From assembly GCA_037043015.1 (NCBI GenBank), contig CM073325.1, forward strand, positions 14,983,001 through 15,047,000: 64,000 nucleotides of DNA. Direction: 5' to 3'. Shown here one piece after another: positions 2-62,642 of this stretch. Each line of letters starts with the position of its first letter. The first letter of the stretch is position 1. The position numbers and the translations under genes are program-made. The stretch is from Bryum argenteum. Its lineage: Eukaryota; Streptophyta; Bryopsida; Bryales; Bryaceae. The notes under the pieces are model-generated. The model was given only the letters and a program-made list of their open reading frames with translations, was not told the DNA's origin and made no database searches.

Positions 2-81
2 TTAACCCTTAAACGCCCAACAGTATGGAAAATACACCGTAAAGCAAGCCCCTCAAGCATGCCCGGGCGTATAAGGGTTAA
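2..81. mobile_element. 80-bp TTAA-flanked inverted-repeat element (copy 1)
   Basis: TTAA is present at both ends. The inner termini are CCCTTAAACGCCC and its imperfect complement GGGCGTATAAGGG. It has the same total length (80 bp) as the copies at 17347 and 29226 and shares their GAAAATACAC-like core and a GCATGC near the right arm. There is no coding capacity. Ends and target fit a non-autonomous piggyBac-like element. Confidence 0.75.
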
Positions 82-92
82 CAATCCTATTA

Positions 93-369
93 CCGTACCA
101 CCATAGCAGGTTCGGTCATAAATAATTCTATTTTTTAGAAACAAAAAAATTTAGAAATTACAAGCCAAGAGGAACAAAAAGTTGGGAAAATATATTATTT
201 CCAAAAACCGCTTCATTGTGACGAAAGGGTATCCAAAAGTTGTGATATTATATAAAAAAGCAAAAGAACGAATTTCAAAAAAATCTATTTTTGGCAGACA
301 AACCTTATTTTTCAAAAAAAAAATATACATATTTGTTCGTTGAAGACCGAACCTGCTATGGTGGTACGG
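93..369. mobile_element. 277-bp MITE with perfect 25-bp terminal inverted repeats
   Basis: Bases 93-117 and 345-369 are exact reverse complements (25 of 25; outer end CCGTACCACCATAGCAGG). The interior is very AT-rich and non-coding. I see no clear target duplication, so the superfamily is not assigned. It lies 11 bp from the preceding TTAA element, probably inside an ACC1 intron. Confidence 0.8.
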
Positions 370-444
370 CATCGTATCTAGTTGAGATGAAGGGTTTTTT
401 AATTCAGGGATGCTGTAGGGTTTAGGGTTTAAGGGTGTGCTCAC

Positions 445-3400
445 CGACTGCAGGAGAGCATTCAAGGCCGCAGGAAGGGCTTTGAGAGAATCGGGAGAGG
501 ATGCGAGCGCCACCATCTCCTTCACCACGCGCTTCGACTCCAGCTCCTGCAAGTGCTGCTCTAGCCCTCTTGGCTCGCGACTCCACGCGCAGAATTTAGC
601 GTCATCGTCCCAGACACTTGCAGACACTTCCTTGATCAATGCCAGAGCTGCAGCATGGCTTATCATCTCGTGATCGCCCGCCGCTTGAATCAACTGCTGG
701 ATCAGGCCCTCCTCGGCCAGCCTCCTCTTCAACCGATTGTAGAAAAAGTTGCGGGACTCACCCCAATCCACCACCTGCAGCACAACTCATGACCTCCTTA
801 GTTGTCGATAACCTCAAGATTTTGTGACGAAATGACAGTTTTTCCTGTGATTATGTCATGTTGTGAATGTTAACGACATTGCCCATCGATCAGGTGATAT
901 GTAAGAGTTGGGATTGTGAAAGGTAGCGGTCGGGGCGGACCTTTCTGATGACGCCCTTGGCCGCCATCCTGTTGGGAGTGTCGTGGAGCTCCATGAAATT
1001 GATGGCCATCTGTTTGTACACTGGGGTGAGGGCTTTCTCGCGGGCTTTGATCTCTTCATGGATCCTGTACGATGTGGCGATGGGTTCGGCCTTGACCTGC
1101 TGCAACTGCTGGCGCAGCGCTACGAGTTCCGGGTCGATGCGGTGCATGCACTCTAGAAGCTCCCGCATTCGGAACTTGATCTCCACCATCCCCTCGGGCT
1201 CCAGCACGCCGCCGCGGGCGGTAGTTTCTGCATACATCTCCACTTTGTCCGAGTTGATTTTGCTGTCCACCACCACCCACGCGCCGCCCCGAAGCTCACC
1301 CGTTTTGGGAATGAACACGAACACCGGCTGTTGGTACACGCGGAGGTGCTCCACAATCATGGACCCCGCTTGGAGGATTCCTTCGAACAGGTCGCGCTGC
1401 CCGCCGGAGAATCCCCTCCAGTTTGCTAATATGAAGAGTGGCAGCCCCTCCTTGTTGAAGTCGATCAATGCCTGGGCTGTTTTCTGTGCTGAGTCGGGAA
1501 ACCACACCTGGCCTGCTTGCGGTACGACGCGCTCATGCGAGTCTGGCTGCCCTGGATCAGCTGGAATCTTTTGCGTCACTGTCTGAGTTTCCACCGCTAC
1601 AATCCCCACTGGTATCCCACCCAACCTCGCGCGCCCGGTCACCACCGTCTGCGCCCACCCTTCCAGTGTCTCAGTGAAGCTGCCGTTGTCGAAGATTCCT
1701 CCCAGCCACTTTCCATTGCTCTCGATGCCGCGAATGGCAGCGCGCGGATCGCAGGACGTCTCGGGGCAGTACTGCACGAGTCTTTCCGGTGGGTCTAGCG
1801 GTGCGATGCATGGTAAGGGGCCTCCGACGTACGACGGCACGTAGCTTAGCCACTTCAAGATGCTTGAGACGCCTTCGAGATCGTCGGCGACTGTGAGGTG
1901 CACGACGCCGTTCACCGCCATTACTTTCGGCCCGCCCAGCTGCATGTGGGAGCTGTAAACCTCCCGGCCGAGCAGCTTGTTGAGCGCTGAGAATCCCGTC
2001 AAGATGATGGGCTGGTCTAGCCGCTGTATGCATCGCATACCCAGGCGCGCCAGGTACGCACCAATGCCCACCGTTCGGCCTGAAACGTACGTCAACGTGA
2101 ATGTTTCTCGATACGCGCGTGAAAACGCGCCCGCAATCGCACCACTGCCCGACAGATTCTCCACTCCAAGCCCATCCTCCTTGCCAATCACATCCTCGAT
2201 CACCCACCTGCACAAAACTCCCCCACAATAAGGCTCACACTCTCATCGTACTCGCTTGTACGTGTCCCATACGGATACTGTACTGACCTGTGCTCGCCGG
2301 AGTCGAGTTTGAGTTCATGAGCAATGACAGACGAAGCGAGGCGCGCGTAATCGTCGGGTCGAAGGTAGAGGTACTTGAACCCGCGCTCAGGAGACGACTC
2401 TTCAGACCAGCCGATGCGGAAGCAGGACCGAACTTCCTCAGCCACACCGATACGAGCACCCGAGTTGGCTGCGAGGTAGATCAGTGGCAGCTTCTCCCGA
2501 CACGCCAAGTCGGTCATGGACTTAAAGAAGACGTCCTCCTTGGGCCCGAATGATCCTGCACTGAACGTTACGTCGTTGGAGACGATCAGCACTCTCCGCC
2601 CGTCTGGAAACTCCGGCGTGCGCATGTGCATCAACCATCCCACCATGCCCACGTTGTTGCTCGACACCGCACGATCCGATTCCACCAGATCTGTGTCCCA
2701 GCTACCGTTCGAATCCGCCAACACAAGCTCGGTTGCCTTAAAAATTGGTGCAGATCCTTGCTGCTTTGCTACTTTCTCCGATGCCTCGGCCCAGCACTGG
2801 CGCAGCACTTTCTCAAACACCTGCAGGATCGCCACCGTGAGCATACATCGACTTTCAAACCTCAAAAGAGAATCTTAGATGATTGAGCCATACCAAGGGG
2901 AAATCGTAGCAGTAAGTGGTGTTCTGGCGCCGGGCTGTGAGCCGCTTCTGATCTATAGCAGCCAGGGGTTTGTACTGAGTCGAGAGCGGCACGCCGTGCA
3001 GCGGCCCAAGCGCCGAAGCCAAAGGCGAGCAATACACCGGCTTACCAGAATCCTTATCTAGAGCTTCTCGATACACCTGCACAAGTTCCACAATTATCAA
3101 ATTGCTCCGTAAAAGCTGAACCGATTCTGGTGCATCGTGAGGTGGAATGTCACGCGGACCTGGACAGTGCAAGTATGGCCAGTTGGATTCGAAACCACCA
3201 CGCGCCACGCGCCGTTGGCAGCTTGAAGCTCCTTCAAACGAACACGAATCTCCCAACCAGCAATGGCGAGACGGTGCATGCGAGCGCCGAGCTTCGTGTG
3301 CACTTCATGTGCCAAGCTTTCCAGCACGTTCACCACTTTCTCGACTTCATTGCTGGCGTTCTCTTTCCTGAAAGCCACAGCCATAAGCATCCGCCAATGT

Positions 3401-11700: not shown

Positions 11701-12820
11701 ATATGTTCATAAACGCCTATGCGTTCTTGGTGTTGAAAATTTTGAAATTTTGGATGGAGGGCTCAAACTTTGAAGAGTCACAACTTCTACACCTTAAGTT
11801 TGTTTTGATGCATTGAATCTCAATTCACATCTAGTTTTGACGTAGGAATTGCAAATTTATTCAATATGAAAATGATTTTATGACATGCACTTTGGTGAAG
11901 GTAATTTTTGTTTTTGGGTTCTCAAACACTAGGCAAGTTTTACCATTGCAAGTTTTACCATTACCACATCTGTGAATTAAATTGTTATCATGAATTTTTT
12001 AAAGTATGATCTTAGAATGAATTTCAACAACCTCCAAGCATGAAGATTTTGGTCCAGATTACTTTGTTATTGGACTTGCGATGACGATTCTAAACTAAAA
12101 AGAACTAGTAACTGCATGGTTTCTGCAGAGTTGTAACTCCTTCATCCATTGTTGGATTTAACCTTTATTTTTTTAAATGAATTTTAGTTAGAGTCTAGTT
12201 TTAGTGGTCAAAACCTTGACTCAGTTGTAAGAGTTTTAAAGGTTTGGCATGGATTAGGCACCATGGTTAGTAGTTCCACCATTGGTATGATGACCTCCGA
12301 GAATACATCTAAGAATAGGTCTAATGAACACTATATTCAGGCTCGCCTCAAAATGGGTAGGAGTTATTCTTCTTCTATGGCACGGATTTGAGTGCAAAGA
12401 GACTATTTTTTCATTATTTTCCCATTTTTAAAGTTTTGGCAAATTTCACCATTGCAAGGCTATTATTTATGCCAAGAACTTTTTTAATAAATTCTTTTTT
12501 GTACCGGTTGTTTCTTAAAATGAATGGGAGAAACTTTCTAGTTGAAGATTTTTTCATTCCAATAGTTTTGTTGGTAGAATTTCCACTCTCAAGTGACAAT
12601 GATGAAAAATTTTAGTTTGTTTTGAGTGCAAAACTGCAAATACGTTATAAATTCACAGTTGTTATGACTTCATGACTCAAATTTTGATTCACATGACCTA
12701 CGATAAGTCAGTTACAAGATTGTACGGTTCAGATCTGTATAACTTACTTTCATTTTCAAATATAAAACTGCTCCAAGTTGTGTTTTTTGGCTAGAATTAA
12801 GTTGAGACATTTAGGGGCTA
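11701..12820. mobile_element. Old ~1-kb TTAA-family element carrying a nested SINE fragment
   Basis: Its body matches the intact copy at 13561-14541 in order (AACTTTGAAGAG..., GGTAATTTTTGTTTTTGGGT, ...TACCATTGCAAG...). Subtracting the nested SINE and its target duplication leaves ~987 bp, against 981 bp in that copy. Both ends are eroded (AAACGCCTATG left, ATTTAGGGGCTA right). No transposase frame. Confidence 0.65.
12256..12378 (+). mobile_element. 5'-truncated SINE inside a TTAA element
   Basis: The 3' part of the SINE family described at 12964, ending in GGAGTTATTCTTCTTC. It is flanked by GGCATGGATT (12246-12255) and GGCACGGATT (12379-12388), a near-perfect 10-bp target duplication. The sister element at 13561 lacks the insert at the matching place, which confirms insertion. 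Confidence 0.7.
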
Positions 12821-12963
12821 GTAGGCCTAGTGGATGTCCTCCCAGTACTAGGCCATTCTCTACCCACACTATTTTTTATTTGTATTGTTTACAGGGGTAG
12901 GGTTTCATTGCATTTGGGTTAGGGCAAAGCTTTTTTAAAAGGGAGTGTAGGTCTTTAATTTTA

Positions 12964-13560: not shown

Positions 13561-14541
13561 TTAACCCTTAAACGCCCACGATGTCGAAAAACGACATTTT
13601 GGATGTACACCAGAAACTTTGAAGAGCCATATCTTCTTCATCCGAGGTGCGTTTGGGATGAAATCACTTGGATTAGGTTCCAAATCAACTCTAGTTTGCG
13701 TTGTAAAATTTTCAAGCCCATACAATAAAGTATGAATTAATGGAATGCACTTTAGTGAAGACAACTCTTGTTTTTGGGTTTCCAAGCATGGGGCATGTAT
13801 TACCATTGCAAGCCAATTATGTGAAAATAAAAATAGTTTTTCATGATTTTTTTTTCATGGTCATGATCTTAAGGAGATTCTTAACAACTTTGTAGTGAGA
13901 AGTTTTCTGATCCAAATGCTTTTGCTATTGGATTTGCAATGATGTTTTGTCAACAGAAAAAGTGAGAAAATGGATGATATTTGAGGAGCTATATCTCCCT
14001 CATCCACCGTTGGATTTCAACTTAATTTTTTGGGATGGCCTCCAATTAGAGTCTAGTCTAAGTGGTAGAAACCTTAACAAGATCGAAGATGTTTTGAAGA
14101 TAAGGCATGAAATTGAATGCAAAGGGTCTAGTTTTGGACTATTTTTCCTTTGTAAAATGTTCGGTAGTTTTTACCATTGCATGGCTTTTATTTGAGCCAA
14201 GAAATTTTTTTGATGAATTTTTGTTGGGTAAAGGACTTATTATGATGAAGGTGAGCATCTTTCTAGTTGGTGATTTTTTCATTGCAATAGGTATATTGGT
14301 AGCATTTCCACCTCAAAGTGAAAATGATGAAATTTTGCAGTTTGTTTTTAGTATTAATATGTTATGATCTCCCGATCTATAAGGCATCATGACTCAAATT
14401 TTGGTTCACATGATCTTCGATAAGTCTATTACAAGTTTGTACGGTTGAGATCTTATTAGCTTGTTTTGATTTTCATCTATGACGATTTCTATGGAAATGT
14501 GCTTTTCCAGCTAAAAATAGGCTTGGGCGTTTAGGGGTTAA
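13561..14541. mobile_element. 981-bp TTAA-flanked element with matching terminal repeats
   Basis: Left end TTAACCCTTAAACGCCCA; right end TGGGCGTTTAGGGGTTAA: 18-bp terminal repeats with one mismatch, TTAA on both sides. The interior is AT-rich with no long frame. It is the best-preserved ~1-kb copy; relatives are at 11701-12820 and from 47146. Ends and target site fit piggyBac; autonomy is absent. Confidence 0.8.
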
Positions 14542-17346: not shown

Positions 17347-17426
17347 TTAACCCTTAAACGTCAAGCCCCTCTGAAAATACACAGGAATCCAAGCCCGAGG
17401 GGCATGCTCTGACATTTAAGGGTTAA
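17347..17426. mobile_element. 80-bp TTAA-flanked inverted-repeat element (copy 2)
   Basis: TTAACCCTTAAACGTCAAGC at the left and GACATTTAAGGGTTAA at the right, with the GAAAATACAC core and the subterminal GCCCGAGGGGCATGC. Same length as the copies at 2 and 29226. Confidence 0.8.
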
Positions 17427-25209: not shown

Positions 25210-27084
25210 TTAACCCTTGAATGGCCCTCGGGGTCCTGTTCTACAGCACCGTATCGTTCATATACGGTTGACGCTTAAAATCCGATTCTCTCAAGGAGGC
25301 AAATTTCTGGGATCGAGCCGCACCGATTAGCTGCGGTTTCACTAGGGATCACGCTTTTTTTTTTTGAAGCCTTGTCCTTGCGACTGTGTGATGAATTTCA
25401 GCAGAACGATCAACAAACTGCTGCGCACACTCTTGATTGATGAGTACATGAATTTTAGAAAATTTGAGCTTGTATGCCATGGAAATCGCAACGGTGGGTG
25501 GCCTTCCAATGACCATCCTACTGTGCACAAAAATTGTCAACTCAAATTCTTTTGTAGCGCGCCTCCGGCAGGATTACCAATGGTATATGCAGCAAGTTCT
25601 GGGTCACCCGAAGATGCGATGGGTGAGGGCCCTTATACGCACTAAAGTGGTGATGAAGTGGCGTTGTGCAATACACGATGGCATCGTACGCGCCAATAGC
25701 TGCGCTCCATGGTGGCGCCTCAACGTGCCAACTCGTGGCGGGAGAATAACCGATTATGCGCCGTGGCAACTGTCCAAGGAGACGGACACTCCCAACGACC
25801 CCCTTCCCGCGCCTGTGTGCATTCACAGGCTTCACAAGAGCTTCTGAAATCGGACTTTAGAGTTTACTATGAATATATTTTACGATCTGTGAGCAGTAGT
25901 TTGCCATGCATGATAATTGCAACTGACTTGATCTGAGCACCAACGGCATTCCATTCACGAGCTTGGTAGAAAGAGATGTAAAGTGGCGTATGGTGGACAC
26001 CTTGCTCATGATCAAATTGCTCAGAAGGGCAATTTCAATATGCAAACCTGATCAAAGTACTGATGCACAGTTGGTTGATTTCTATGGCACACGATTGTGA
26101 TTGCATCAGGCAAAGAACAAGCTCCGAGACCGTCCATGTGTTGTTGCTAAGCGAGTTGTCTTCGTGAGGGTTTGGTGATATAACCTGATCGCTTGTTTGA
26201 GCCATCCCAACATAAGAGCTCGTGAAGAAGGAGTAATCTCACTCGCCAAGTTGCATCGATGGTTGTCGTATCAGGAGTGTCCAGTTTCCTGTGAGTCCGA
26301 GGCGGCAATGGAAGTCTACACATCCACTGGTGGTTCAACAACCCGACAATGCGTTGTGCTTGTTTCAAGCTTGCTCCTCGTGAAATTGCCCAGTTGTGCA
26401 GCAACTCGCCTTCAGCAGCTAAATAGGGTGGTGCATCAGGCACCACCGTTGCAGAGACAACAAGAGAACACATCACATCACAATCCAATTGCTCCCCACT
26501 CGCACAGGACAAACTACCTCAAAATTGCTTCCCACTCTCCCCACTCGCATAACACGAACCACCCTTGCACTGGAATGATCAAACCCACCACCTCTTCACA
26601 TCGGATGCGTGCTCCACTTTTATGCATCATTGTTGTCGCTTTTAATGTTGTACTAGCAAACGATTTGCCATGATAAAAATGCACCGTGCTGCCCCCACAA
26701 TTGCTACGGAAATGTCGGAAAGAAAAATTGAAACCCATAAATGTGTTCGTCCTCGTCGCGTGAAGTGTGATCTCCCGCGCTTAGCTGAACTCCCGCCTTC
26801 TACGGCCAACGGGCATGGCCATGTTGGCACCCGAAGAGCCGCTACAACACCAGGTATGTCTTCATTGACATACGGCTCCGTATCGCAACCCTAAAACAGT
26901 ATTTTCATCTCTCCGCGCTAATCTGTAAGCTATTATGGGCAACCAATTGACCAATTGATCCAAAATTTCAGCACCTTTCACGTTGTAGTTCATCAATCGG
27001 CCAAATACAAACCCTAGCATGGCTGAATACACAAAAAACATGAGCATACGGCCAGAGAGGGCGTTCAGGCCGTTCAAGGGTTAA
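25210..27084. mobile_element. 1.87-kb TTAA-flanked element, longest copy in the window
   Basis: Left end TTAACCCTTGAATGGCC; right end GGCCGTTCAAGGGTTAA: 17-bp inverted repeats with one mismatch, TTAA both sides. The interior is distinctly more GC-rich than the flanks and holds overlapping frames of 60-158 codons on both strands (for example plus-strand 25464-25847, whose frame opens with TTG, and 26197-26673). None shows piggyBac transposase motifs I can recognise, so it may be a decayed autonomous copy or carry captured host DNA. Confidence 0.7.
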
Positions 27085-29225: not shown

Positions 29226-29305
29226 TTAACCCTTAAACGCCCAGCTCCTTTGAAAATACACTGAAAAGCAAGCCCGAGGGGCATGCTTGGGCGTTTAAGG
29301 GTTAA
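29226..29305. mobile_element. 80-bp TTAA-flanked inverted-repeat element (copy 3)
   Basis: The best-preserved short copy: TTAACCCTTAAACGCCCA and TGGGCGTTTAAGGGTTAA are perfect 18-bp inverted repeats. Core GAAAATACAC; subterminal GCCCGAGGGGCATGC. Confidence 0.85.
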
Positions 29306-31687: not shown

Positions 31688-31985
31688 ACGTCGTAAAAAA
31701 CAAAGTACTCCATACCCATCTCCAAATATGAAGAATTTGACCAAGAACGACGTAAAAAACAAACTACTCCATACTCATCTCCAAATAAGAAGAATTTGAC
31801 CAAGAACGACGTAAAAAACAAACTACTCCATACTCATCTCCAAATAAGAAGAATTTGACCAAGAACGACGTAAAAAACAAACTACTCCATACCCATCTCC
31901 AAATAAGAAGAATTTGACCAAGAACGACGTAAAAAACAAACTACTCCATACCCATCTCCATATATGAAGAATTTGACCAAGAACA
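31688..31985. repeat. Minisatellite, five ~60-bp units
   Basis: Repeats of AACGACGTAAAAAACAAACT followed by ACTCCATACNCATCTCCAAA and GAAGAATTTGACCAAG. Units are nearly identical in the middle, the first diverging most (GTCGTAAAAAAC). The frame is not preserved between units, so coding is unlikely. A SINE-body remnant follows at ~32005-32080. Confidence 0.9.
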
Positions 31986-39257: not shown

Positions 39258-39843
39258 CTAACCCCTAAAGATCCAAGAGGACCAAATCGGGCTTTTGCTA
39301 TTTTGGGCAGCTTAGATGAATAGGTTAAAAGTAATATTTTTGCCTAAATTTTTTAATGGGCGCTCCCTATATTGCAAAGTGTATGTGGTAAAATTTACAA
39401 AGCCAAATTCCAATTTTTGAGTCTTCTACAACAATTCTTGGTTTGCGAGCCGAACTGGGGCAGTTTAAATTTAGTATTTTTTTGAAATTTTTTTTTGGAA
39501 ATATGTTCATGACCAAATCACTACTTAAGTTCCAAAGGGCCCCAACTCAAAAAGTGTACCAATTTTACAAGGGCAACCTCCAAAAGTGTCAAAAATAATC
39601 TCAACAATGCCCAAAAAAACTTCGTAGACAAACTTTGGATGTTATAATCTCTCAAATGGTAAACATCCAACGGTCAATTTTTATATCAGATACTGAAAAT
39701 TGGCTTAGGTACAAGATCTTACGGTTGGAAGTTAAGAAAAGAATAAAAAAATTGTTTCGCACCCCTTGAAGTGCATAGAGGTAGAGAATTGGAGTTTTGA
39801 GGTTTTAAGCTCCCAAAAACACCCAAGGATCTTTAGGGGCTAA
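39258..39843. mobile_element. TTAA-family element flanked by CTAA
   Basis: Ends CTAA-CCCCTAAAGATCCAAG and CCAAGGATCTTTAGGGG-CTAA: inverted repeats, with the same CTAA tetranucleotide on both sides instead of TTAA. Interior 578 bp, AT-rich, non-coding. Confidence 0.75.
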
Positions 39844-40532: not shown

Positions 40533-41738
40533 TTAACCCCTAAAGATCCAAGAAAGTCGAAATGGCTTCTTGGAGTTCGTGCAAGGAGAATTCTTGTAGC
40601 CAATTTGACAATTATAATTCCACAAATGAAGAAGAATTAAGAGTTCAAATTTTGTGTGCATGTATAAAGGCAAGTTAACTTCAAGAAACTACAGTCAGGT
40701 ACACTTCATTTACGAATTCCACTTTGGAGGGAGTTTTTATGAAAAGTTTGGCAATTCATTGTGAACTCAAAAATGATCGGATTTGAAAACCGTAAAGTGT
40801 GTTGGAATCACATCTGAGTGTACTAAAATATTGTGATAAAATACTAATTCCTCTTTGTAGTATCATTAAACGTATTTCAATTACTTATACACGATCTGTT
40901 ATTGACTACTCCTATTTTTTGCTTTTGTAAAATGTACATTTCAATTGCAAATTTGAAATAAGCTCCCAAAGTTGTTCTTGGGATACTTAGGCAGATACTT
41001 GTGGTATCATTGATATACTTCTTTTTTGGTTTTGGCTTGGAGGAATTTCTTGAAAAGTCCTAATGATCACTAAACTTTACGCAGAACATGTGAAAGCCCT
41101 TCACACAACTACATATGTCCCCCGTAGACTAAAAAATGTCTTGAAGGATGGTTGAAGGCTATTAGAGTAATAACTCTCATGCGTAGCTTAAATTCTTATA
41201 GTATTCTTGCCAAGTTCAAAGGAAGATTCATTTTCGACCTTGAGTTTTAATTGGGGACTCATGAGAAACCACTCCATACCAAAGAATCCAAGAGAGGAGA
41301 TTCTTTTGGTTATTTGAGTATGTGCCTAAGTATCCCAAGAACAACTTTGGGAGCTTATTTCAAATATGCAATCGAAATGTACATTTTACAAAAGCAAAAA
41401 GTAGGAGTAGACAATAATAGATCGTGTATAAGTAATTGAAATACGTTTAATTATATCACAAGGAGGAATTAGTATTTTATCACAATATTTTAGTACACTC
41501 AGATGTGATTCCAACACACTTTACGGTTTTCAAATCCGATCATTTTTGAATTCACGATGAATTGCCAAACTTTTCATAAAAACTCCCTCCAAAGAGGAAT
41601 TCGTAAATGAAGTGTACCTGACTGTACAGTTGGCTCTTTTCAGTTGATACTAAGATGAAGATTTTTTGGGCCTAAAGTAGACAAAGGTCATTTTCTATAA
41701 ATTTAGGTAATTTTAAGTTGAGGATCTTTACGCGTTAA
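40533..41738. mobile_element. TTAA-family element interrupted by a TA-flanked element
   Basis: Left end TTAACCCCTAAAGATCC, right end GGATCTTTACGCGTTAA (two changes from the expected complement). Removing 40692-41626 leaves a ~271-bp element that follows the 276-bp copy at 48279-48554 base block by base block. Confidence 0.75.
40692..41624. mobile_element. 933-bp long-TIR Tc1/mariner-like element, nested
   Basis: TA on both sides (40690-91, 41625-26). Arms of ~300 bp (40692-~40990 and ~41326-41624) are inverted repeats at high identity, beginning CAGTCAGGTACACTTCATTT. The host element at 48279 has an intact CCTACGGTTGG where this one has a TA interrupted by the insert. TA target and CAGT ends suggest Tc1/mariner; the ~340-bp spacer has no transposase. 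Confidence 0.8.
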
Positions 41739-42529
41739 ATTAGTCCAAATCACTTATCAAACGCGAATTTAAAATAAAATAGACATTCCGCTTGAGGCAA
41801 ATCCACAAAACATATTATTATCACTCCTCTCTCGTATTGCATATTTGGAATGTATAAACATACGGGCCTTTAAGGATTAATGGTAAGGCAAGGTGCTCGC
41901 ACAATGATGAAACCATATAAGAAAATTTTGACTTGGAAGTACAGCGCTGCAGCCATGCATGGAAGGAAAGGAGTTTGTACAACGAGACTACTGCCGGAGC
42001 CCAAGGGGTCAACCATCATGAAAAACAGGTGGCCATTGTCCTTGCCCGCAAACCCAAAAAATAAAAATTTAAAAAAATCATCCCCCAACAAACATTGCTT
42101 CGAACGTGCGATTCCTCGGCCGGGTAGCGGTGCTATCCGCGTAGCAAAAAGAGAGGATTCTAACACACTTTTGCATGTATAATTTGGATGCAATGTGAAC
42201 AACAAGCATATGCCCACTCTAGTACGTTGCGATAGAAGCAACAAACTTGCTTAATATTTGTACATCATTCCGTTTCCAAGATGGAACCTTTTTCCAAAAT
42301 ACTTCCTTTTCGGCTATTGTACGTGTAAAAAAAATGCTCGAAATCATTGCCACTCGCGAGTCAATAAAGATAATGGTAGCTATCCGGATGAAAAATTTGA
42401 GTGTGTGTAGAATGATACCACTTTTGAGCACTTTAAGTACAAGAGGGTGAGAGTGTAGTAGGTAAAGAATACATTGTTAGTTCCACATTTATAATACATG
42501 AGCTGTCTCTTTTTGGGGCCAGAATAAGA
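41739..42529. other. Intergenic DNA
   Basis: GGGCCTTTAAGGATTAATGG near 41860 may be an eroded TTAA-element end, partner not found. Frames on both strands at 41870-42244 are unassigned. Confidence 0.3.
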
Positions 42530-43062: not shown

Positions 43063-43545
43063 TTACCTCACATGGTCGAGACAACGGATATTTCGTGGAT
43101 ACAGTTTTGGAGGCTCCGTTGAAACCAACCACGAGATCTCAAATCGATTTGTTGCGCCCTTCTTCTTGTTGGCCGCTAGCATAGTGCAGCGGAGATCTCG
43201 TGGATGTAGTTCCAAAGACTCTAGCGTGACCAACCAAGAGTCCTCCGTTGTAACCAACGACGACACCTCAAATCGATTTGTTGTGCCCTTCCTCTTGTTG
43301 GCCGCTAGCATAGTGTAGCAGAGGAGATATCGTGGATGTAGTTCCAAAGACTCTAGCGTGACCAACCAAGAGTCCTCCGCTGTAACCAACGACGACACCT
43401 CAAATCGATTTGTCGTGCCCTTCTTCTTGTTCGCCGCTAGCATAGTGCAGCGAAGGAGATATCGTGGACGTAATTCCAAAGACTCTATCGTGACCAACCA
43501 AAAGACCTCGAATCGATTTGTTGAGCCCTTCTTCCTACTCAATCA
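43063..43545 (-). repeat. Tandem array of four ~130-bp units, open on the minus strand
   Basis: AATCGATTTG anchors occur at 43142, 43271, 43403 and 43511 (spacings 129, 132, 108, all multiples of three). The minus strand stays open across all units and would encode about 43-residue repeats with TNRFEVSSLVT and LVTLESLELHPR. The DNA here and upstream to 42865 is more GC-rich than the surroundings. It may be a repeat-protein exon or a minisatellite; no family recognised. Confidence 0.7.
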
Positions 43546-43967: not shown

Positions 43968-44419
43968 ACTTTGTGAAATTTTGCTAAAAGTGTTGCACGT
44001 GTGTTGTAAGCTTACAGCTAACTTTGTTTGTAGAGAACTCTAAAATCTTGGATAGCACGGCCAAGCCTTACGCGGCAAGCCGCATCATGGCATGAGCGGT
44101 GCGTATGGAGTTTCATGCTCATGCTTGCATAAGTTGGATTGACATTACGGCCATGAAACAAACGTGTAAAGTGACCCAATTAGTAACCCTACTCTCTTTC
44201 TCTTGATCGAGGTAGTCAATGCGGTGTGTTATTTTATTTTTGAGATTTTAAGTTAGGACCACTTTGTGTTTTGAGTTTCAGGAATAAAGTCAATGTGGTC
44301 CTTGCGAAGGATTAATAGCAACTATACTTTGTGTCATCATCTTCATATTTGAATAACAAGCGTGAGTAGTGTAGGATGGGGCATCATCTTCACATTCTTG
44401 CAATGAGAGGTTGATTGGG

Positions 44420-45614
44420 AAAAACCGACGATTGGTTCATTATCAGCCGATGGAAATAACCCATTAGCTAGTTGATTCTTGTAAACATCGGCTAAATTAC
44501 AAGAAATTTTCTATTCTCAGTGTAAAAGGAGACAATTGCCAATATAATTTCACCTAAAACTGGTTGGACGAGAGAATTATAGGATATTAGCTAGTAAGGA
44601 TGAAATCATTTCCTGAACCGTGGTCATAAGAGGTTGAAGGTTGAGGGACTTTCAATGATGCTACAAGTGCTGATTATTTTTGTCCCGCCATTGGTGTGAT
44701 GACCCATTCGAGGCATACATTCAACGATAGGTCAAACGAACATTCTATTCACGTTGGCCTCAACATAGGTTGGAGTTTCTCTTCTACCATTGGTGTGATG
44801 ACCTCGGGGCATAGGTCGAACAAACACTCTATTCACGCCAGCCTCTAAATAGGTTGGAGTTTCTCTTTTTGCTGATTATTCTTGCATGAAAACTCAAACC
44901 TTCAAGTGTGCTAACTTATGAAAAACTATAACTTTCATTTGCAAAAAGAAAAAGAAAAAGAAAAAGAAAAGTCTAATAAGTTAACTTTATAAGCTAGAGG
45001 AACACTAGGACGGATGGTTACATTTGGATTTGGAATTTTGGATGATTGGAAAAAATAAAAAGAGGGTTCATTGATGAGCCAAATCTTTTGTACACATCAC
45101 CCTTGGCTTGGCCACCTGGACACTGCAAAATGAACAGCTGGCTTAAAACCAACTGGCACCTTTTGACATGGATAATCTACTTTTTTCCCCATGGGGCTAG
45201 TGCACCTTTTTAGGGTACCACCACCCATTGAGAGAAAGAGGGTCCAAAACTTTAGAGTGGCCTGCCATCAAGGCATATATTTTGACCCTTTTAATCGGTT
45301 GTATAGGCCATTCATGTCTGGATCCAACTCATACTTTGTACTTTGTATATTTGTACTTTTGAGGGCGAGAACTTCCAAGAATGTCTCATTCCACCAAGCT
45401 TTGCTAGCTAGAAATCCTATTCACGGTTCTGGAAATAATTTCATCCTTACTGGCTGATATCCCATAGTTCCCTTCTCCAACCGGTTTTAGGTGAAACTGT
45501 CGCAGCAATTGTCTCATTTTATACTGAGAATATAAATCTTATTGTAATTTTCACGGGTGTTTTTAGCTAATGGGTTATTTCCATGGGTTGATAATGAACT
45601 AGCCGTCGGTTTTT
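44420..45614. mobile_element. ~1.2-kb element with ~200-bp terminal inverted repeats
   Basis: 44420-44625 and 45425-45614 are reverse complements at good identity: AAAAACCGACG..., GGAAATAACCCATTAGCTA and CACCTAAAAC(T/C)GGTTGG occur in both. Interior without a transposase frame; it contains a SINE insertion. Long arms recall Mutator-type or foldback elements, but no 9-bp duplication was found. Confidence 0.7.
44679..44869 (+). mobile_element. SINE 3'-end dimer with 11-bp target duplication
   Basis: Perfect duplication TGCTGATTATT at 44668-44678 and 44870-44880. The insert holds the SINE 3' part twice head to tail, each unit starting near CATTGGTGTGATGACC and ending GTTGGAGTTTCTCTT. Confidence 0.8.
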
Positions 45615-45619
45615 ATCGA

Positions 45620-46105
45620 TCATTGATCGTATGTAAAGCGTGGTGAAAATTCCACATGTTTCCTAAAAACCAATATCTATTGTCACCAATCTCTTTAGAA
45701 TTGCTCATATGTCATAGAATCAAAGGAATGCATGCCGCTTCACAACAATGTAGGATGAGGTTGGTTCTAGAAGAGTATAGGGTTTGGTCAATGATTTGAA
45801 CCTCCATCTTCCTCCATAGAAAAATTGTCCAAATTGTCTCAAATGATTGCATATCACCCATAAGTTGTTCTTTACGCATGTATCACAACTTTTTGAGTCG
45901 TTGTATAGAAGAAGTCACTATGGATGGTTTTTCTTATAGTGTAATAACGGTAATTTTATACTAGACAAAATTACGACCCACCACTTCTCTATATCATGAA
46001 ATTATTTTTGGGTCATCACCCACATAAAGTCCTTAAAAACTCACACCTATTTGTCAAATCTAAATCTCCTTTTAAGTTTCCAATTATAACAATGATCTTC
46101 ACACC
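45620..46105. other. Intergenic DNA
   Basis: AT-rich, no gene or bordered repeat recognised. Confidence 0.3.
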
Positions 46106-48278: not shown

Positions 48279-48554
48279 TTAACCCCTAAAGGTCCAAGAG
48301 AGCGGAAATTGCTTTTTGGAATTTCCGCAGGGAGAAAATTCATCCAACTTTGACCATTATAATCTCAAAATTGGAGAAAAATTAACGGTTCAAATTTGAC
48401 ATTCGAGAAAAGGGTCAAGTTAACTTCAAGATCCTACGGTTGGATCTTCTAATCAATGCTTAGATTGAGTTTCTTTGCACCTGAAGTAGAAGAAGGTTCT
48501 TTTTGATAATTTAAACAATTTTGTATCAAGGACCTTTAGGAGTTTAGGGGTTAA
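48279..48554. mobile_element. 276-bp TTAA-flanked element
   Basis: Left TTAACCCCTAAAGGTCC, right GGACCTTTAGGAGTTTAGGGGTTAA-type end (GGACCTTTAG then TTTAGGGG). TTAA both sides. Same family as the hosts at 40533 and 62381; non-coding. Confidence 0.78.
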
Positions 48555-48724
48555 TTTTTAAGGTGAAGTTCTTTTATTCTTTTCAAAATAAGATATGAAT
48601 CTCGTAGGCAGAAATAATCATTCTTCAATGCAAGTAATTTATATTTTTATCGGTGTTCTTCTCCAAATTTTCAAAAAAAAAAAAAAAAAAAAAAAAAAAA
48701 CAAACAGTGATTTACGGTTTCTCG

Positions 48725-49816: not shown

Positions 49817-49819
49817 TAA

Positions 49820-50610: not shown

Positions 50611-50613
50611 TTC

Positions 50614-51512
50614 TTAACCCTTAACCCCTAAAGGCCCGAGGGGTTTGAAGAAAAACTTAAATGTGTTATAAAATATGAATTCGGTAACCCTTATGAAGTA
50701 GCGCTCCAAAGATAGTATAAAGACCTTAAACCCTAAATTAGATCTATACGGTTAAATTTCCTAAAATAAGTAAGATTTCTTTAATAATGAAATAAAGAGA
50801 GTAAAACTTTGAAAATCAATATAAAATGTAATTTCTATTATTAGTAATTGAAAATTGCTATGATTGGCTAAAATCACATATTATAGAATAAACTGAAGAG
50901 AGGCCACAAGTAACCTATGAGGAACCTTATTAGTTTCCCAAAATAGTAAGTTTTCTTACACTAACAAAACTTTGCCCTGTTTGTGTTTGAAGGCTTATTA
51001 TGAACAATCTATGAATCCAAACAGAGTTCTGTAAATTGGATGTGGTTCCCAACTTACCAAACTTTTGGAATGTTAAAAAAAAATCCAAAAGAAAACTTTT
51101 TTTTATCCAGGTACAGCTCCTCAAAAATCGGGATCGACCATAAAATGGTCGATTGGGCTCTTAGGGGTTAAATGCCCAAGAGAGCCCGAGGGGCTCTTTT
51201 CCAACAGAGTAGTTCTCATTGTAATGAACTTTTCACTTATATTTTGATGTCAAATTGGTCACCTTCTTGCGATGTATTCAAAAAGTGAAATTTTACAGTT
51301 TAAATGAGAATTTGTATGAGTGATTTTGTGCTTTGAAAGGATTGTGGTAGGTAGGTTGGGGTTGTACATAACCTTGTAGGAGGTTGCAAGCTCATCATTG
51401 ATTGGTTTACTCATGATGCCCAAGTTCAAAACGTGCTCTATTCATGATGCCCTAGTCCAAAAGATGTTGTGATTCAATTTTGGGCTGCCCATTTCAAGCG
51501 TCTAAGGGTTAA
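50614..51512. mobile_element. Outer TTAA-family element split by an insertion in its own end
   Basis: With 50621-51167 removed, the left end reads TTAACCC-TTAA-ATGCCCAAG, the standard terminal repeat, and the right end is AGCGTCTAAGGGTTAA. Body includes GCCCGAGGGGCTC and ACTTTTCACTTATATTTTGA, shared with the element at 52080. Confidence 0.7.
50621..51171. mobile_element. Inner TTAA-family element nested in another's terminal repeat
   Basis: TTAACCCCTAAAGGCCCGAG at the left, GGGCTCTTAGGGGTTAA at the right; 551 bp including both TTAA copies; AT-rich, non-coding. Confidence 0.75.
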
Positions 51513-52079: not shown

Positions 52080-52425
52080 TTAACCCTTAACCCTTAAAGG
52101 TCTGAGAGTGCCGTGGCGACCAGTAGAATACGGTGTATTTTGGTTGCATTTGGAGTGAATGCACACCTTTAATGGGTTTGAGTTCAAAGAAGAAGTTGAC
52201 ATTTGAATTAATGCGGTTCTAGTGAGCTATTACGATTTCAGTTTAGAGTTTCTTGTTGGTAGCAAATTCTAATTATACGACAACGTACATACTATCCACA
52301 AGGGACTTTTAAGGGTTAAACGCCCAAGTAACCCCAAGGGGCTTGATTCCAACAAAATCTTCTCTGCACCTCTCACTGTACTCAACTTTTCACTTATATT
52401 TTGATGTCAACCTGGTCACCTTCAC
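52080..52425. mobile_element. Second outer TTAA-family element, right side not found
   Basis: Left end is TTAACCC followed, after the inner element, by TTAAACGCCCAAGTAACCCC and ACTTTTCACTTATATTTTGA, as in the element at 50614. The right terminus is missing. A ~35-bp stretch with CTAAAAGACTC and TTCCAC appears both just left of it (~52050) and at ~52430. Confidence 0.6.
52087..52319. mobile_element. 233-bp inner TTAA element nested in another's terminal repeat
   Basis: Ends TTAACCCTTAAAGGTC and GACTTTTAAGGGTTAA; interior unrelated to the inner element at 50621, so the two nestings are separate events. Confidence 0.72.
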
Positions 52426-56380: not shown

Positions 56381-56677
56381 CCACAAACCCTAAACAAAAG
56401 TCTACCTACTCAAGAGTTCATAACCCATCATGAAGATCTCACAACATGACATCATCATCTCCAAAGACTTGAAGCCCACATTTAAGCACAATTACCGAGA
56501 TAGATTCTACGTAAATGAGCCACACAAACACACTTTTATTTCAAGATGGGTAGCGTCAATAATTAAAATTTTGTAGCAAAACAAAGCAAAGCAAAGACCT
56601 AGTACAAGACAATTATTTTAGACGAGCCTTTTTGAAAATCAAAGAATCGAAAGTGGGTCCCCTCCCCCCTCCCCCAA

Positions 56678-56720
56678 CCCCCAAAGCAAGCCCCCAAAGC
56701 AAGCCCCCAAAGCAAGCAAT
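56678..56720. repeat. Three-unit 13-bp repeat
   Basis: CCCCCAAAGCAAG repeated three times in tandem. Confidence 0.85.
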
Positions 56721-57235
56721 GACCATTGTTCGGATTAGAAGGCAGGTTCTATGTGGTTTGTGGTATGGGCACATTTCCCCATACCCTCGTGATTATTCAC
56801 ATGCACGGACAAAGTCATACAAAAAGGGAATCGGTATGGTTTTTTTTTTTTTTTGTTTCCATGGGATGCTTAGGACCATGGAACAAAGTGCCCCCCCCAA
56901 TATTTTGATTCTAAAGGATTCACATACATGCATCAATCCAATCAATCTCCTTGGTGGGTGCGGAATCAAAGGTGTTTGATCAAAAGCTAAGAATAAGAAA
57001 AAGAGACGAGAATACTCGCTCAAAATCATGGTTGGAATGTGTCTTTAATCATCAACACTAAATTGGGCTTGGATTGATGTAAGCCTCTCATGCTCTTAAG
57101 ACCCTTTCCCATGTCCATGAATAATTGGTACAATATTTCCAAGAATGGCTCGAATTAGTAGCACTACGTCCAATGGGCTCTTTATTTATACATGCGGGTT
57201 TGGGTTGATTAAGCAAAGTGGGTTTGTAATCAAGA

Positions 57236-57605
57236 AACAAAGGTCGTCTACCTTAGAGTGCCAAATTGAGTTTTGAAGGTTACAAGGAGTATGCTCTTTT
57301 TATGTCATTTTGTCCTTCTTGACCCGGACACATTTTGATGATATATGAGGATATATATATTGCAAATTTGGGCAAATATCAACATGCCCTAATAGCGTTT
57401 TTCAACTTTGAGAGTGAATTACGTTTGAAAATATGAACAAAGGTCATATATGATAGAGTGCCAAATTGAGTTTCAAAGGTTACTTCTCTCATGACAAGGA
57501 CTAGGCTCTTCCTATGTCATTTTGTCCTTGTTGACCCGAGACACATTTAGATAATATACGAGGATATATTATGCAAATTTGGGCAGATCTCAACATGCTC
57601 TAATA
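57236..57605. repeat. Two ~200-bp tandem units, the second split by a LINE
   Basis: GAGTGCCAAATTGAGTTT recurs at 57256 and 57456. The second unit continues after the LINE at 59750 with TTGAGAGTGAATTTGGTTTG, the counterpart of TTGAGAGTGAATTACGTTTG in unit one. Confidence 0.85.
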
Positions 57606-57618
57606 GCGTTGTCCAACT

Positions 57619-59736
57619 CTTTTCTTCTTCTTTCTTTTCTTTTTTTTTTTTTTTTTTTTTTTTTTTGAGTCAAATGGTGGATTTCCATTGCAAGAAAGAA
57701 AATGAACACCGATGCAGAACCTAGTCCGGATTTCCAGATTGGCGAGTGACAAATTTAGGGATTTTAAAATAGTTCCTAACCTGGAGCTTGTACCTAACCT
57801 GAAACTTGAAACTAAAACCTGAGCGAGCTACTGAAGAGAGATCGGGGCAGAGAGGTCGGGCTGATGGTTAGGACAAGTGCCTGCGATGGGTTAGAAGTCC
57901 AATACTTGGGAAGCTATAGGAAGCTGCCTGTGGGTGGGCGGGTATATTGCCAGTGAGGAATGTCATGCCGTATTGTACAGAAAGTGTCGTTGCGGCACCA
58001 TTGGCGTTGGAAAGTCTGATTCGATGTCGCCCCTGCCACCGGTAGACTCCGTTCGAGGGTGCGGACTCTGAGCCAGGCGGACCTGGCTAAATCAAGGAAT
58101 GCATCCCAGAGGGCCCTCTCTAATTGTTCCCGTGGCCAACGTATTCCGTTGAAGACATTGTTGTTTCTCCTGATCCATATCAGCCACAAGGTTGAACCTC
58201 GTAGGAGCGACCATATGCTTTGCCCTTGAATGAGGTTTGACGGGAGGTCGAAGCCTAAAAGGCATTGCTGCCATGTGAGTCTCGCTTGCGGGGTTGTATC
58301 ATAAGGAATTTCTAGCATCTTGAAAAGGACCGAGGTGGTGAAATCCCAGGCATAAGTGGCAGCTGAACAGTCGTAGAAGGCATGTACCAGCGTCTCAGGC
58401 ATGTCGTGAGAGCAGCAAGTACATATATCTGAAAGAGTGGGATGAGCCACTCGCCTCCACTTGTTGACTGCGATTGCGCAATGAAAGAAACTCCAAATAA
58501 AAGCCGCTTCCTTACGAGGCCGTCCAGGTCGCCACACCTCCTTCTAATTGGGGACAAATGGTTGTGGAACCAAATCTCTCCACTTGGAGTGAATCGAGAG
58601 GCTGAGGGATTCCCTGGGAGACCGCCATTGACGACCAGCACGAGCCGTGTAAGCATAGAAAGCTTCGCCTGGTCTCCAGAGCCACCGCCCGGATCAAAAG
58701 TGAGTGAGTGTGGGAGCAAGGTACTTCGAGAGCTTTGGTACGTAATCCTCGGCTTCTTCTCACCGAGACTACCCGTACTCGGAGAAGGAGGCCTCGGAGC
58801 GTGTTGGGTCGAGCTCGATCCTGGAGGAGGAGGAGGGAGCGCGACTGACTGCTAACTATGAAAAGTGGCACCTGGTGAGGTGGCTCAACCAGGCGGGACT
58901 CCCAATGAAGTGGAGGGCAAAAGCCAGTTTGCGTGAAAAAGAGTACGTGAGGCAGTGGAGAAGTGGCAGTTTCGAAGACCCCAAGCCATTCGTCTGGACG
59001 AGATTGAGTGCGAGTGGCAGTCTCCAGTGTGATCCACTCCCGCGGTAGGCGGACAAAGAATTGCTCAATGGCAGCCCTTTCGGTGTCCTGCAATCCAAAA
59101 CTGGCTTGTAGTTGCGTCCATGATTGCTGTGAGAGAGTGTTCGGAATGCACATGTCCCGAAGATGATTGAGTCCACGCCGAGCCAATTGGCGAGCCCTGC
59201 GGACTTCGAATCCAAAGTTTGCTCCGATGTAGGTGGCTGACCACCACAGGTTGGTATTCTGCACTTCTTCGAAGGAAGTTGGCGGGACTGCATCGATCAG
59301 AGGAGTCAATCTGCGCCATGAGGAGATGAGCTTGTTCCAGAAAGGTGAGCCGAGTGGGGCAGAGAATTTGTGGAGGAAGGCTTAATGCAGGCTGCGTGGC
59401 CAGGCTCCAGAGGCCGGTGGTTGGATCGCTGAGAGTTTGTGGCGTAGCAAGAGGTGTAGTGGGGATTGATCAGGCACCAATGCCTTGATCACCCACTTTC
59501 CCATCAAGGCTATCAGGGCTTCTTCGGGATCGATGATACCTAGGCCTCCCACTTTTTTGGATGCACAACAGTCGCTCCATCGTACTCTCGCTCACGCTTT
59601 TTCTTCATTCCCTGCCCAAAGATAGTTGCGAAGAGAGGCCTTGATTTGTCGGATGATTTTGGTGGAGCCGCCCCAAATGCTGATGAAGTACCAGAGAGTT
59701 GACAGAAGGACCGAATTCACGACAACAGCACGGGCT
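57619..59736 (-). mobile_element. 5'-truncated LINE (L1-type, RT C-terminus plus zf-RVT), decayed
   Basis: Target duplication GCGTTGTCCAACT is perfect at 57606-57618 and 59737-59749. On the minus strand the element ends in an A-rich tail (57619-57666). It begins inside the reverse transcriptase C-terminal region (AARAVVVNSVLLSTLWYFIS at ~59735-59676; LRNYLWAGNE) and continues to GGLGIIDPEEALIALMGKWV. Near the 3' end is a zf-RVT region (RKEAAFIWSFFHCAIAVNKW, then C-T-C-C, ETLVH and F-Y-D-C) at ~58520-58350. At least two in-frame stops (~59591, ~59385) and frame changes between 59309 and 57914 show it is inactive. No ORF1, endonuclease or RT catalytic core is present. Confidence 0.9.
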
Positions 59737-59749
59737 GCGTTGTCCAACT

Positions 59750-60105
59750 TTGAGAGTGAATTTGGTTTGAAAGTATGAGGAAATAAAATAAACATGAATG
59801 GTCTTGTCGGAAAGATATGAATAAAAGTCTACAATGTGCGAGAAGTTTGAGTTTCATGATATCTAAAATTATTAACTCAAAAGCTTGACCAAAATGTGGA
59901 TTCTTTCAACTTTAAGGGTTAATAACTTTGTACACTCAAACATTATAAGTGTTTCTTTAACAACCATATGTAAGATTTCTTATAATTGCAAATGTCTTCT
60001 ACACATTATGGTACACATTCTTTTTAATCCACTTTTTTTGATGCCAATCAAGCCTAGTATTGAATGCCACGAATCAATGTTAGACTTTGTTGACTAGTAG
60101 AAGAA

Positions 60106-60156
<51 letters not shown>

Positions 60157-60590
60157 ATTTGAATCAAAGTTACAAGGGCACAACAAATAATTTGTACTTG
60201 TGTCATGAATCTTCCACATACATAAGTATTTCTTTGTATTTTACACATCTTTGAAATATTTTAAGTACAAGTATTTAAGAGCTAAAAAAATAAAAATTTG
60301 AGAGAACAACTCTCAAGTACGTCTTTAAGTCCGAAAGTTTGAGAATAATATTGTACTCCAATAACCAAAATTTAAATTTTAGGATGAAGGAGACATGTAT
60401 ACATATTTTGCAACTTTACTAGTAACTCACAAAGAGAGAACTTTAGGACATGGACATTCAAATCTAATTTTAATTGTTGGCAAAGCTAGGCACCATAGCA
60501 AATATAGTAGTACAAAACGATTATAATTGTTCAAAGCTAGAGTTTGATTTGATACAAAAAAATTAAAAAAAAAAAATGAAACTTACACTA
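59750..60590. other. Intergenic DNA after the LINE
   Basis: Rest of the second tandem unit, then ACTTTAAGGGTTAA (~59909-59922), a right terminus of the TTAA type, then a ~44-bp poly(A) run. No gene. Confidence 0.4.
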
Positions 60591-60594
60591 GGTA

Positions 60595-60812
60595 CACTAA
60601 ATTTGATAATCAGTGTTAGATACACTAATTTACATAAACATGTTATAAGTTTTTACTGTTGTTCAATAATTTTACCGACTATATTGGCCAAGATGGGGGT
60701 CCTTATATAGTATCATAATCAATGCTCTTGGTAAATTTTTTTAAAACAAAAGTAAAAATTTATAGCATTTTCAAATCTTATAATAATCTAACACTAATTA
60801 TCAAATTTAGTG
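60595..60812. mobile_element. 218-bp TA-flanked MITE
   Basis: TA at 60593-94 and 60813-14. Terminal repeats CACTAAATTTGATAATCAGT and its complement (one change), ~25-30 bp. AT-rich, non-coding; TA target suggests Tc1/mariner. Confidence 0.65.
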
Positions 60813-60936
60813 TAGTGCTTCCCATGACAATCTCCTTTTATCATGCGCTTTAGAAAAGATGGTACCATTTTCATTTTTATTAGGAGGATGCAAACTAGTA
60901 TGACAACCGAAAGAAGGTTGCAAGTGCTCGAGCAAG

Positions 60937-60984
<48 letters not shown>

Positions 60985-61720
60985 GGGGACGTGGTGGGGG
61001 TTGCGCGAAGATTCAAAATCTTTTTCTTCTCTATAGTACAACTGCATTATTTTTTAATTTTTTGTTGTTGGTATTAGATTTGATTATTTTATTGGATGTG
61101 TTCAAACATGTGGGATATGAGTATACCCTACCTCGTTCAATCACTCACAGGTGCCACCTTTGTTGACTGCTCTTTTCAAGTCGTAGGAATATGGATACCC
61201 CTTCTTTTGAATATTTTCCCAATCACTCGGCCCTTCAATCAAACTTGTGTTCGATCGATGGCCTATTATTTTTTGGAATTGTCACTCGATCGGGCCCCAT
61301 GGCCGCCCAACCAAAATTTCCCTTGTCGCCCTCGCGCGGATCATTGTCCTTTAGAAATTTGTCCCTTGTGACTTATTTATACCGCAAGTTTCACCTCCTA
61401 CGCGTACATCATTTGTATACTTGTTGTTGTTTCTCAAAGGTCTTGTATTGTGTGAAAATCATTAGAATTAGCAACATGCGCATTATCTCGGCTAGCTTCT
61501 ACATGACTCCATGCATTGAATCATGACAAAAAATCACTTAACCCCTCTCAAATGTCTTGAGGTTAAAATTTCGATCAAAAGTGAACCCAATTGCCGCATC
61601 ATCGATTTTTTATTTTTTTTAAATTTTTTTTTTCATAACTAAGACATTTTCCTAAAACTTGTGTTTTGAAGAAGATGCTCTAATATCAGTTCTCTATTTG
61701 TCTTGTTTCGAACAATAAAT

Positions 61721-61795
61721 GAAGAGAAACTCCAACTTATTTAGAGGCCGGGGTGAATAGAGTGCTTGTTTGACCTATCCTTGGCTTGTGGTGTC
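61721..61795 (-). mobile_element. Short 5'-truncated SINE
   Basis: GAAGAGAAACTCCAACTTAT to TTTGACCTATCCTTGG is the SINE 3' end reversed. Flanks CGAACAATA and TGAACAATA form a probable target duplication. Confidence 0.65.
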
Positions 61796-61799
61796 TTTG

Positions 61800-62380
61800 A
61801 ACAATAGAACCATGTATCCACTTATTGAAGTGCTTGGACTTATTGTGCAATTATATGGTCTCTTCATTGCATGTAATGTACCACATCTTTCAAAGACTTG
61901 AGCTTCAAAACTTTAAATTCTAGCAGCCGATAAATATCAAAAACCAAGTTTTGCGTCATGGGTTCAAGCCACCATGCTTTCATATGACTAACCTTTGATT
62001 GTTCCTCGCATAAAAATTCTAAATTGAAGATTAAGAATATCTATTTCCATGATGTTTATCCTATGTGAAGTCATCATTCTTCGAAGCCAAGTATGTACTT
62101 TCCATTTCAAATACAAAACAAACGTGTAAGCAAAGCAAGCCAATGTGGCTTTGACTACATTTGGGACGGTGATCCTCATGCTATGAAACAAGATTATTAT
62201 TCCGTGATGTTTCATATACTTCAAAGTTCTAAGAATGTATATTGAGTTCTAGTTTTGCAATTAAGACTCTTTTTACGTGCAAGGAATATTCCTATACCAT
62301 AGTAGTTGATATATTTTTCTCATTTCCTTCTTTCACGTGAGCTAATGAGCAAGAAACCAAAGGCCAATGCTGCAACCATT
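61800..62380. other. Intergenic DNA
   Basis: AT-rich; a 78-codon minus-strand frame at 61988-62224 is unassigned. Nothing else seen. Confidence 0.3.
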
Positions 62381-62642
62381 TTGACCCCCTAAAGATCCTA
62401 AAAACCGGAATTAGGTTTGTGAGGGTTCTTACAAGAGCAAAATTCAGCCAACTTTGACCGTTATGATCTCACATATGAAGAAAAGTCGACATGTCAAATT
62501 TGGCATGCAAGTAATAAGTCACGTTAACTTAAGACCCTACGGTTGGACCTTCTAAATAATGCTTAAATTGACCCTATTTTGGTTTTAAAGTAAAAGATAC
62601 CATTTTTGTAATTTAGGTAATAATTTTGCACCAAGGGGTTAT
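62381..62642. mobile_element. Degraded TTAA-family element
   Basis: Left TTGACCCCCTAAAGATCC, right CACCAAGGGGTTAT; the body (AACTTTGACCGTTATGATCT, CCTACGGTTGGACCTTCTAA) matches 48279-48554. Both flanking TTAA copies are mutated. Confidence 0.65.

Follow-up and report, generated by a model that had tools for sequence, protein, structure and literature searches.

Known piggyBac transposons are excised seamlessly; their transposase cleaves the element at its CCC ends, which are then joined to a TTAA target. Elements with borders of this type were found in a 64,000-nt stretch of the moss Bryum argenteum (C5:14983001-15047000, hereafter the window), which lies in a genome of 258.8 Mb and 25 contigs (C1, C2 and so on). 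We are highly confident that they represent moss piggyBac-superfamily transposons together with their miniature derivatives (miniature inverted-repeat transposable elements, MITEs), and that the full-length members, 4.5-8.4 kb long, carry a transposase and an upstream gene, ORF1, on one strand.

These transposons resemble the piggyBac of Trichoplusia ni (PDB 6x67/6x68) and the piggyBat of Myotis (PDB 9c0f) in the three-aspartate (DDD) core, the TTAA duplication, the CCC ends and, in some copies, a candidate cysteine-rich tail. They differ in their moss host, their length of 4.5-8.4 kb and their second conserved gene. Intact beetle piggyBac elements, in the available part of the source, measure 2,074-3,465 bp and have a single transposase open reading frame (ORF) of 500-725 aa (PMC12732532). 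That single-ORF architecture was not seen here, as the ORF1 domain was present in 18 of the 20 transposase loci read and the elements were of the size given above. The coral CMITEs are likewise described with a TTAA duplication, CC(C/T)T-type ends, an origin as piggyBac deletion derivatives, an empty allele and nested-insertion elements. On the other hand, their host is an animal, and for their partner AmiPB1 (3,668 bp) the available text gives one ORF of 601 aa (PMC2872659).

The name PiggyBac does occur in plant genome tables, with 1,230 pieces in C-fern and one in Stipa (PMC6890710, PMC8319324), and in a list of MITE superfamilies (PMC10004981). In the available text of these three sources it is a shared name only, given with no transposase, ends or second gene. 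Plants are also counted among the hosts of piggyBac-like elements in general terms (PMC8086355), PiggyBac is placed among plant superfamilies (PMC10794571), and piggyBac is said to have been isolated from plants too (PMC10813416). An earlier sequence-only reading of the window held that the superfamily is described mainly from animals, fungi and protists. This agreed with the accessible text of PMC12732532, but PMC8086355 and PMC10794571, in their accessible parts, name plants as hosts generally.

No description of a two-gene piggyBac or of a moss piggyBac was found in the literature searched by title and abstract start, which left many journals and Repbase uncovered. The system is a two-gene variant of piggyBac, and new in the sense of not found in the literature searched. 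A DNA transposon with two genes, a transposase and a small conserved companion, is known in PIF/Harbinger. The likeness is in the companion gene; the transposase superfamily differs, and for the ORF1 domain Pfam offers no convincing match.

A profile search of the genome with PF13843 scored 116 matches out of 776 candidates, all above the cut-off (E 7.4e-82 to 1.4e-69). One or two stops fell within the match in 23 of them, and none in the other 93. No PF13843 match was found in 14 control genomes. The window itself contained none of the 116 scored matches, as the sequence-only reading had stated. The 20 best-scoring matches were read as loci of about 10 kb each (genomic loci are labelled by L-numbers). 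Four of four transposase frames scanned against Pfam matched PF13843, and the open frames were long, several exceeding 800 aa.

Inverted TTAA-CCC ends enclosed the transposase in 16 of the 20 loci, delimiting elements of 4,469-8,392 bp. The transposases between such ends are thus directly observed, and the suggestion that longer members should be sought genome-wide, with PF13843 genes beside their ends, was borne out in these 16. The alignment of L029 with L030 starts exactly at TTAACCC. A candidate 5' end near the transposase, TTAACCCCAAATTCC, was rejected, being internal in both of these loci; their true 5' ends are some 2.6 kb more distal.

The three aspartates taken to be catalytic all had strict motifs in 14 of the 20 loci (singly in 19, 16 and 19). 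The L039 protein aligned through them with piggyBat (9c0f) and piggyBac (6x67). The cysteine-rich C-terminal tail showed its strict pattern in 8 of the 20, and no Pfam match to the tail rose above the cut-off. In six pairwise comparisons of the transposases, the ratio of nonsynonymous to synonymous substitution rates (dN/dS) was 0.155 for L034/L046 and 0.152 for L029/L038. The 0.49 of L029/L030 and the 1.19 of L039/L040 (few changes) do not speak clearly for or against constraint, and L036/L043 was saturated. No weight was given to the 0.73 of L034/L042, because L042 shifts frame within the stretch.

The end motif itself was far in excess of chance. The window had 13 exact occurrences of TTAACCCYTAAANNYC, whereas 20 shuffles that preserved dinucleotides averaged 0.0; when one mismatch was allowed there were 22, against 0.2 in the shuffles (maximum 1). 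Genome-wide, the 16-base motif had 17,779 exact copies and the reversed motif 25. Among the first 100 places of the motif listed, all on contig C1, 19 neighboring pairs were convergent within less than 2 kb, compared with 0.57 expected at random placement. The pairs fell into size classes (80, 233, 233, 264, 268, 354 and 586 bp, five of 930-936 bp and seven of 978-982 bp), and the sizes 80, 233, 586 and 981 bp were common to these pairs and to the window elements. The 930-936 bp class, starting with TTAACCCCTAAAAATC, was not represented in the window.

The TTAA at the element borders is a target-site duplication, as shown by two empty sites with a single TTAA and by two nested insertions in the window. 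Two of 16 candidate empty sites (overlap TTAA or GTTAA, TTAACCC ends) were used. The remaining 14 lacked such ends at both junctions, had longer overlaps, or involved other repeats. At one site, L011 contains a 593-bp element that its near-identical duplicate L012 lacks, with one TTAA left there. At the other, a 5,758-bp transposase-bearing element in L039 splits a repeat, and the relative in L038 (80-84% identical) is unsplit, with one TTAA.

In the window, the 551-bp element (50621-51171) was inserted in an internal TTAA of the end of the element at 50614-51512, of which an uninterrupted relative lies at L029:656-998. The 233-bp element (52087-52319) likewise interrupts the end of another element, whose TTAACCC is at 52080, at an internal TTAA. 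In both cases the invaded end was of the CCCTTAAA type, and joining the flanks with one TTAA restored it (TTAACCCTTAAATGCCC and TTAACCCTTAAACGCCC, respectively). Among 20 copies of the 80-bp family, TTAA was kept on the left in 19 (L026 has TGAA) and on the right in all 20, and the next flanking bases varied.

A direct link between the MITEs and the transposase-bearing elements came from the 586-bp deletion derivative at 39258-39843 (plus strand; ending in GGGGCTAA, flanks CTAA). It is homologous to both termini of full-length elements: its first 164-205 bp or so match the 5' termini, and its last 240 bp or so the 3' termini, of L045, L034 and L042. A copy in L029 was 98.6% identical to it. 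For 27 window ends, the 48 bp inside the first 12 were compared with the 16 transposase elements, with 600 random 48-mers of the window as the null. Seven ends (81R, 29226L, 29305R, 39258L, 39843R, 40533L and 48279L) gave p <= 0.01 and six more p < 0.05, all uncorrected for multiple tests.

The MITE families were represented by closely similar copies. The 981-bp family had 40 full-length scored copies at 96-100% identity (itself included, as in the following counts) and five weaker pieces, the 276-bp family 40 at 96-100% and one weaker, and the 80-bp family 40 at 93-100% and one weaker. The first-look candidates, 5,835, 2,210 and 548 respectively, came from a loose prescreen and are not copy numbers. 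The near-identical copies (96-98%) supported the earlier claim that a piggyBac-type transposase is or was active in this lineage, as far as past activity is concerned. The transposase matches, 116 or more, and the TTAA elements, in their thousands, show that piggyBac can make up a major part of the genome in a land plant.

Contig C1 (44.1 Mb, 17% of the genome) was poor in elements: over its first 8.73 Mb the density of end motifs was about 11.5 per Mb, compared with 68.7 genome-wide. Among the best candidates, it contributed 5 of 116 transposases, 3 of 150 ORF1 matches, and 0 of 41, 1 of 45 and 0 of 41 in three MITE searches. It may be a sex chromosome or a contig with a different repeat history.

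The second gene, ORF1, contains a conserved domain of about 80 aa and was found in 18 of the 20 loci, where it precedes the transposase on the strand that they share. The domain was missing in L033 and L043, partial in L035 and broken in L046. In a 14-member alignment, seven members were just 27-39% identical to L039. Genome-wide, with a single ORF1 domain as the query (150 of 368 candidates scored), ORF1 was located 956-1,686 nt upstream of 35 of the 116 transposases on the same strand; none was on the other strand or downstream, and 0.16 was expected at random. The single query covers part of the ORF1 diversity, so 35 is a lower bound. The 1,875-bp window element (25210-27084) retains an ORF1-domain remnant on the minus strand at 26243-26401 (tblastn E 7e-5 against the L036 domain), which goes beyond the observations of the sequence-only reading.

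The dN/dS of the ORF1 domain was 0.06-0.51 in five of eight pairs; the other three were saturated at synonymous sites, with the proportion of nonsynonymous differences (pN) below that of synonymous ones (pS). The domain is under purifying selection, as judged from these sequence comparisons. It had no convincing match in Pfam, Myb-like families included. Matches to FBA_2 (one of six frames, E 0.03) and Pet100 (one of 14 members, E 0.22) were taken as chance, as were two weak matches of the ORF1 profile to transient receptor potential (TRP) channels in PDB (E 0.02 and 0.05). No relatives of ORF1 or of the transposase were confirmed in viral contigs.

L039 and L040 have near-identical transposases (pN 0.011, pS 0.009) and ORF1 domains that are far apart (pN 0.116, pS 0.286). 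This contrast may be a sign of mosaic elements formed by module exchange. Separately, 58 ORF1 matches shared an identical bit score of 138.4 and a near-equal frame of 149 aa (for example C2:426145-426426), which suggests a very recent burst. A scored transposase lay just downstream in eight of these 58, and at least 50 had none nearby; the remaining copies may be derivatives that retained ORF1.

In the L039-like clade, to which the exon and intron prediction applies, nine of nine loci have a very short predicted first exon (MP, basic residues, KQ), which is in phase with the transposase across a predicted intron of 82-117 nt. The exon is decayed in L048, and the intron of L046 ends in GG instead of AG. 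The predicted transposase ATG lies inside the 3' part of ORF1 in another frame, or just after the ORF1 stop. In L047 it is 2 nt after the stop; L032 and L048 have two ORF1 stops, of which the first precedes the ATG by 4 nt and the second by 1 nt. This arrangement suggests one transcript that would encode two proteins.

From these results we propose the following mechanism. A full-length element carries ORF1 and, downstream of it, a transposase that has the catalytic core of piggyBac; a cysteine-rich tail is recognizable in some copies. As in known piggyBac, the transposase would bind and cut the CCC...GGG ends and join them to TTAA, duplicating it, and transposition would be of the cut-and-paste type with seamless excision. 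For each MITE family, internally deleted copies that retained the ends would have been moved in trans and so spread to thousands of sites. ORF1 and the transposase would be expressed from one transcript in the L039-like clade. The co-occurrence and constraint of ORF1 suggest a helper that may bind the ends or the target, or may regulate transposition.

Several points weigh against this explanation. Four of the 20 loci (L033, L035, L043 and L046) had no pairable ends on both sides. For the other 16, the search pattern for the ends was TTAACC/GGTTAA, and TTAA alone is therefore no independent evidence there; the remainder of each inverted end agreed although it was outside that pattern. In 14 of the 27 window ends the likeness to the 16 transposase elements stopped at the end motif and did not extend to the subterminal bases, and families such as the 981-bp and 233-bp ones were not matched to any of these elements. 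The evidence on ORF1 is confined to a single genome. The N-terminal part of ORF1 was weakly constrained, with ratios of 0.54 and 0.85 in two comparisons, which placed the constraint on this protein mainly in its domain.

The elements could also belong to another superfamily whose junctions show all or part of TTAA, namely Sola3, whose Sola3-type transposase goes with a TTAA duplication, PIF/Harbinger (TAA/TTA) or Tc1/mariner (TA). TTAA includes TA, TAA and TTA, and many MITEs are assigned by target site alone, according to the available text of PMC10004981. We consider such an origin very improbable here. The empty sites fit a four-base duplication, TTAA was kept on both sides of the 80-bp copies while the next bases varied, and the genes between the ends belong to PF13843, a comparison in which no search was aimed at Sola, Harbinger or mariner transposases. 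A reading of the motif as chance or telomere-like repeat, rather than transposon ends, draws on the CCCTAAA contained in it, which is the usual plant telomere unit. The shuffle and reversed-pattern controls, the convergent pairs in size classes and the empty sites refuted this, and it has next to no probability.

The nature of ORF1 was the other question. It could be the upstream exon of one long transposase protein: it shares the strand of the catalytic domain and precedes it by 1.0-1.7 kb, it nearly adjoins the transposase frame in the L039-like clade, for which an intron is predicted, and the transposase frames are themselves long. In all nine L039-like loci, however, the predicted exon that joins the transposase has its own ATG in a frame other than that of ORF1, and ORF1 stops 1-4 nt before that ATG in L047, L032 and L048. 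This evidence, which comes from the L039-like clade, makes the exon reading improbable. Alternatively, ORF1 could be a passenger gene with no part in transposition, as it matches no known domain and can travel alone, judging from the copies without a nearby scored transposase among the 58 equal-scoring ones. On the other hand, it was kept in 18 of the 20 transposase loci even though several of the clades are 27-39% identical to L039, and its domain is constrained. A passenger is therefore unlikely.

On balance we lean towards a co-factor: mosses would host a distinct two-gene piggyBac lineage, in which an undescribed protein with a domain of about 80 aa takes part in transposition, possibly from the same transcript, and which has left thousands of insertions, some very recent, in one genome. 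The conserved ORF1 suggests that the elements work with a helper protein. Mosses are readily transformed, and the need for ORF1 is thus directly testable. The elements could become a plant-native piggyBac tool.

Ten elements in the window, from 80 to 1,875 bp long, are flanked by TTAA on either side and have inverted ends resembling CCC(C/T)TAAA; two of them are nested in others. This matched the claim of at least ten copies from 80 bp to 1.87 kb. The 13 starts listed in the sequence-only reading held in part. Ten read exactly TTAACCC (2, 13561, 17347, 25210, 29226, 40533, 48279, 50614, 50621 and 52087), and their paired right ends finish TTAA at 81, 14541, 17426, 27084, 29305, 41880, 48554, 51512, 51171 and 52319, in the same order. 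The other three belong to degenerate elements: 11701 has no end, 39258 reads CTAACCCC and 62381 reads TTGACCCCC. Twelve element intervals, the degenerate ones included and 50621-51171 being inside one of them, amounted to 7,821 bp or 12.2% of the window.

Three of the ten were 80-bp MITEs, at 2-81 (ends CCCTTAAACGCCC and GGGCGTATAAGGG), at 17347-17426 and, on the plus strand with scored genome copies, at 29226-29305. The 981-bp MITE (13561-14541) and the 276-bp MITE (48279-48554), both on the plus strand, also had scored genome copies. The element at 11701-12821 is related to the 981-bp element but has diverged from it, with blocks at 67% and 75% identity and no intact TTAA-CCC left end. The degenerate member at 62381-62642 has no intact TTAA, and its start resembles, by eye, the 276-bp element.

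The 1,875-bp non-autonomous element was rare: one other copy, on C4, spanned the same two ends with an internal gap, and there were three short weak matches. The description of the elements as abundant thus does not extend to all of them. The 1,348-bp element (40533-41880; ends TTAACCCCTAAAGATCC and GGGCCTTTAAGGATTAA) contains a 937-bp inverted-repeat structure at 40690-41626, with 310-nt arms (96%) and 317 nt between them, which looks like another mobile element.

The host was taken by the sequence-only reading to be a plant, and a single LEAFY gene detected about 132 kb downstream of the window (C5:15179455-15180024) confirmed this. LEAFY is not known outside green plants of the streptophyte line. 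The DNA-binding domain was nearly identical to that of PDB 4bhk (FLORICAULA/LEAFY homolog 1): one exon agreed at 61 of 61 residues and the second at 100 of 105, and 9g19, 9fwy and 2vy1 ranked behind. We take 4bhk to be the Physcomitrium patens protein, and the Asp in KMRDYVH to be the moss type of LEAFY; the host is thus a moss.

Among the genes of the window are those for a multidomain acetyl-CoA carboxylase, PEX11 and a TPR protein; a zf-RVT remnant of a long interspersed nuclear element (LINE) was also present. Further inverted repeats were seen at 44412-45622, whose arms, 59 and 129 nt long (86% and 83%), enclose about 0.8 kb. Tandem arrays were located at 31688-31984 (five copies of a 59-bp unit) and 43114-43509 (three copies of a 132-bp unit).

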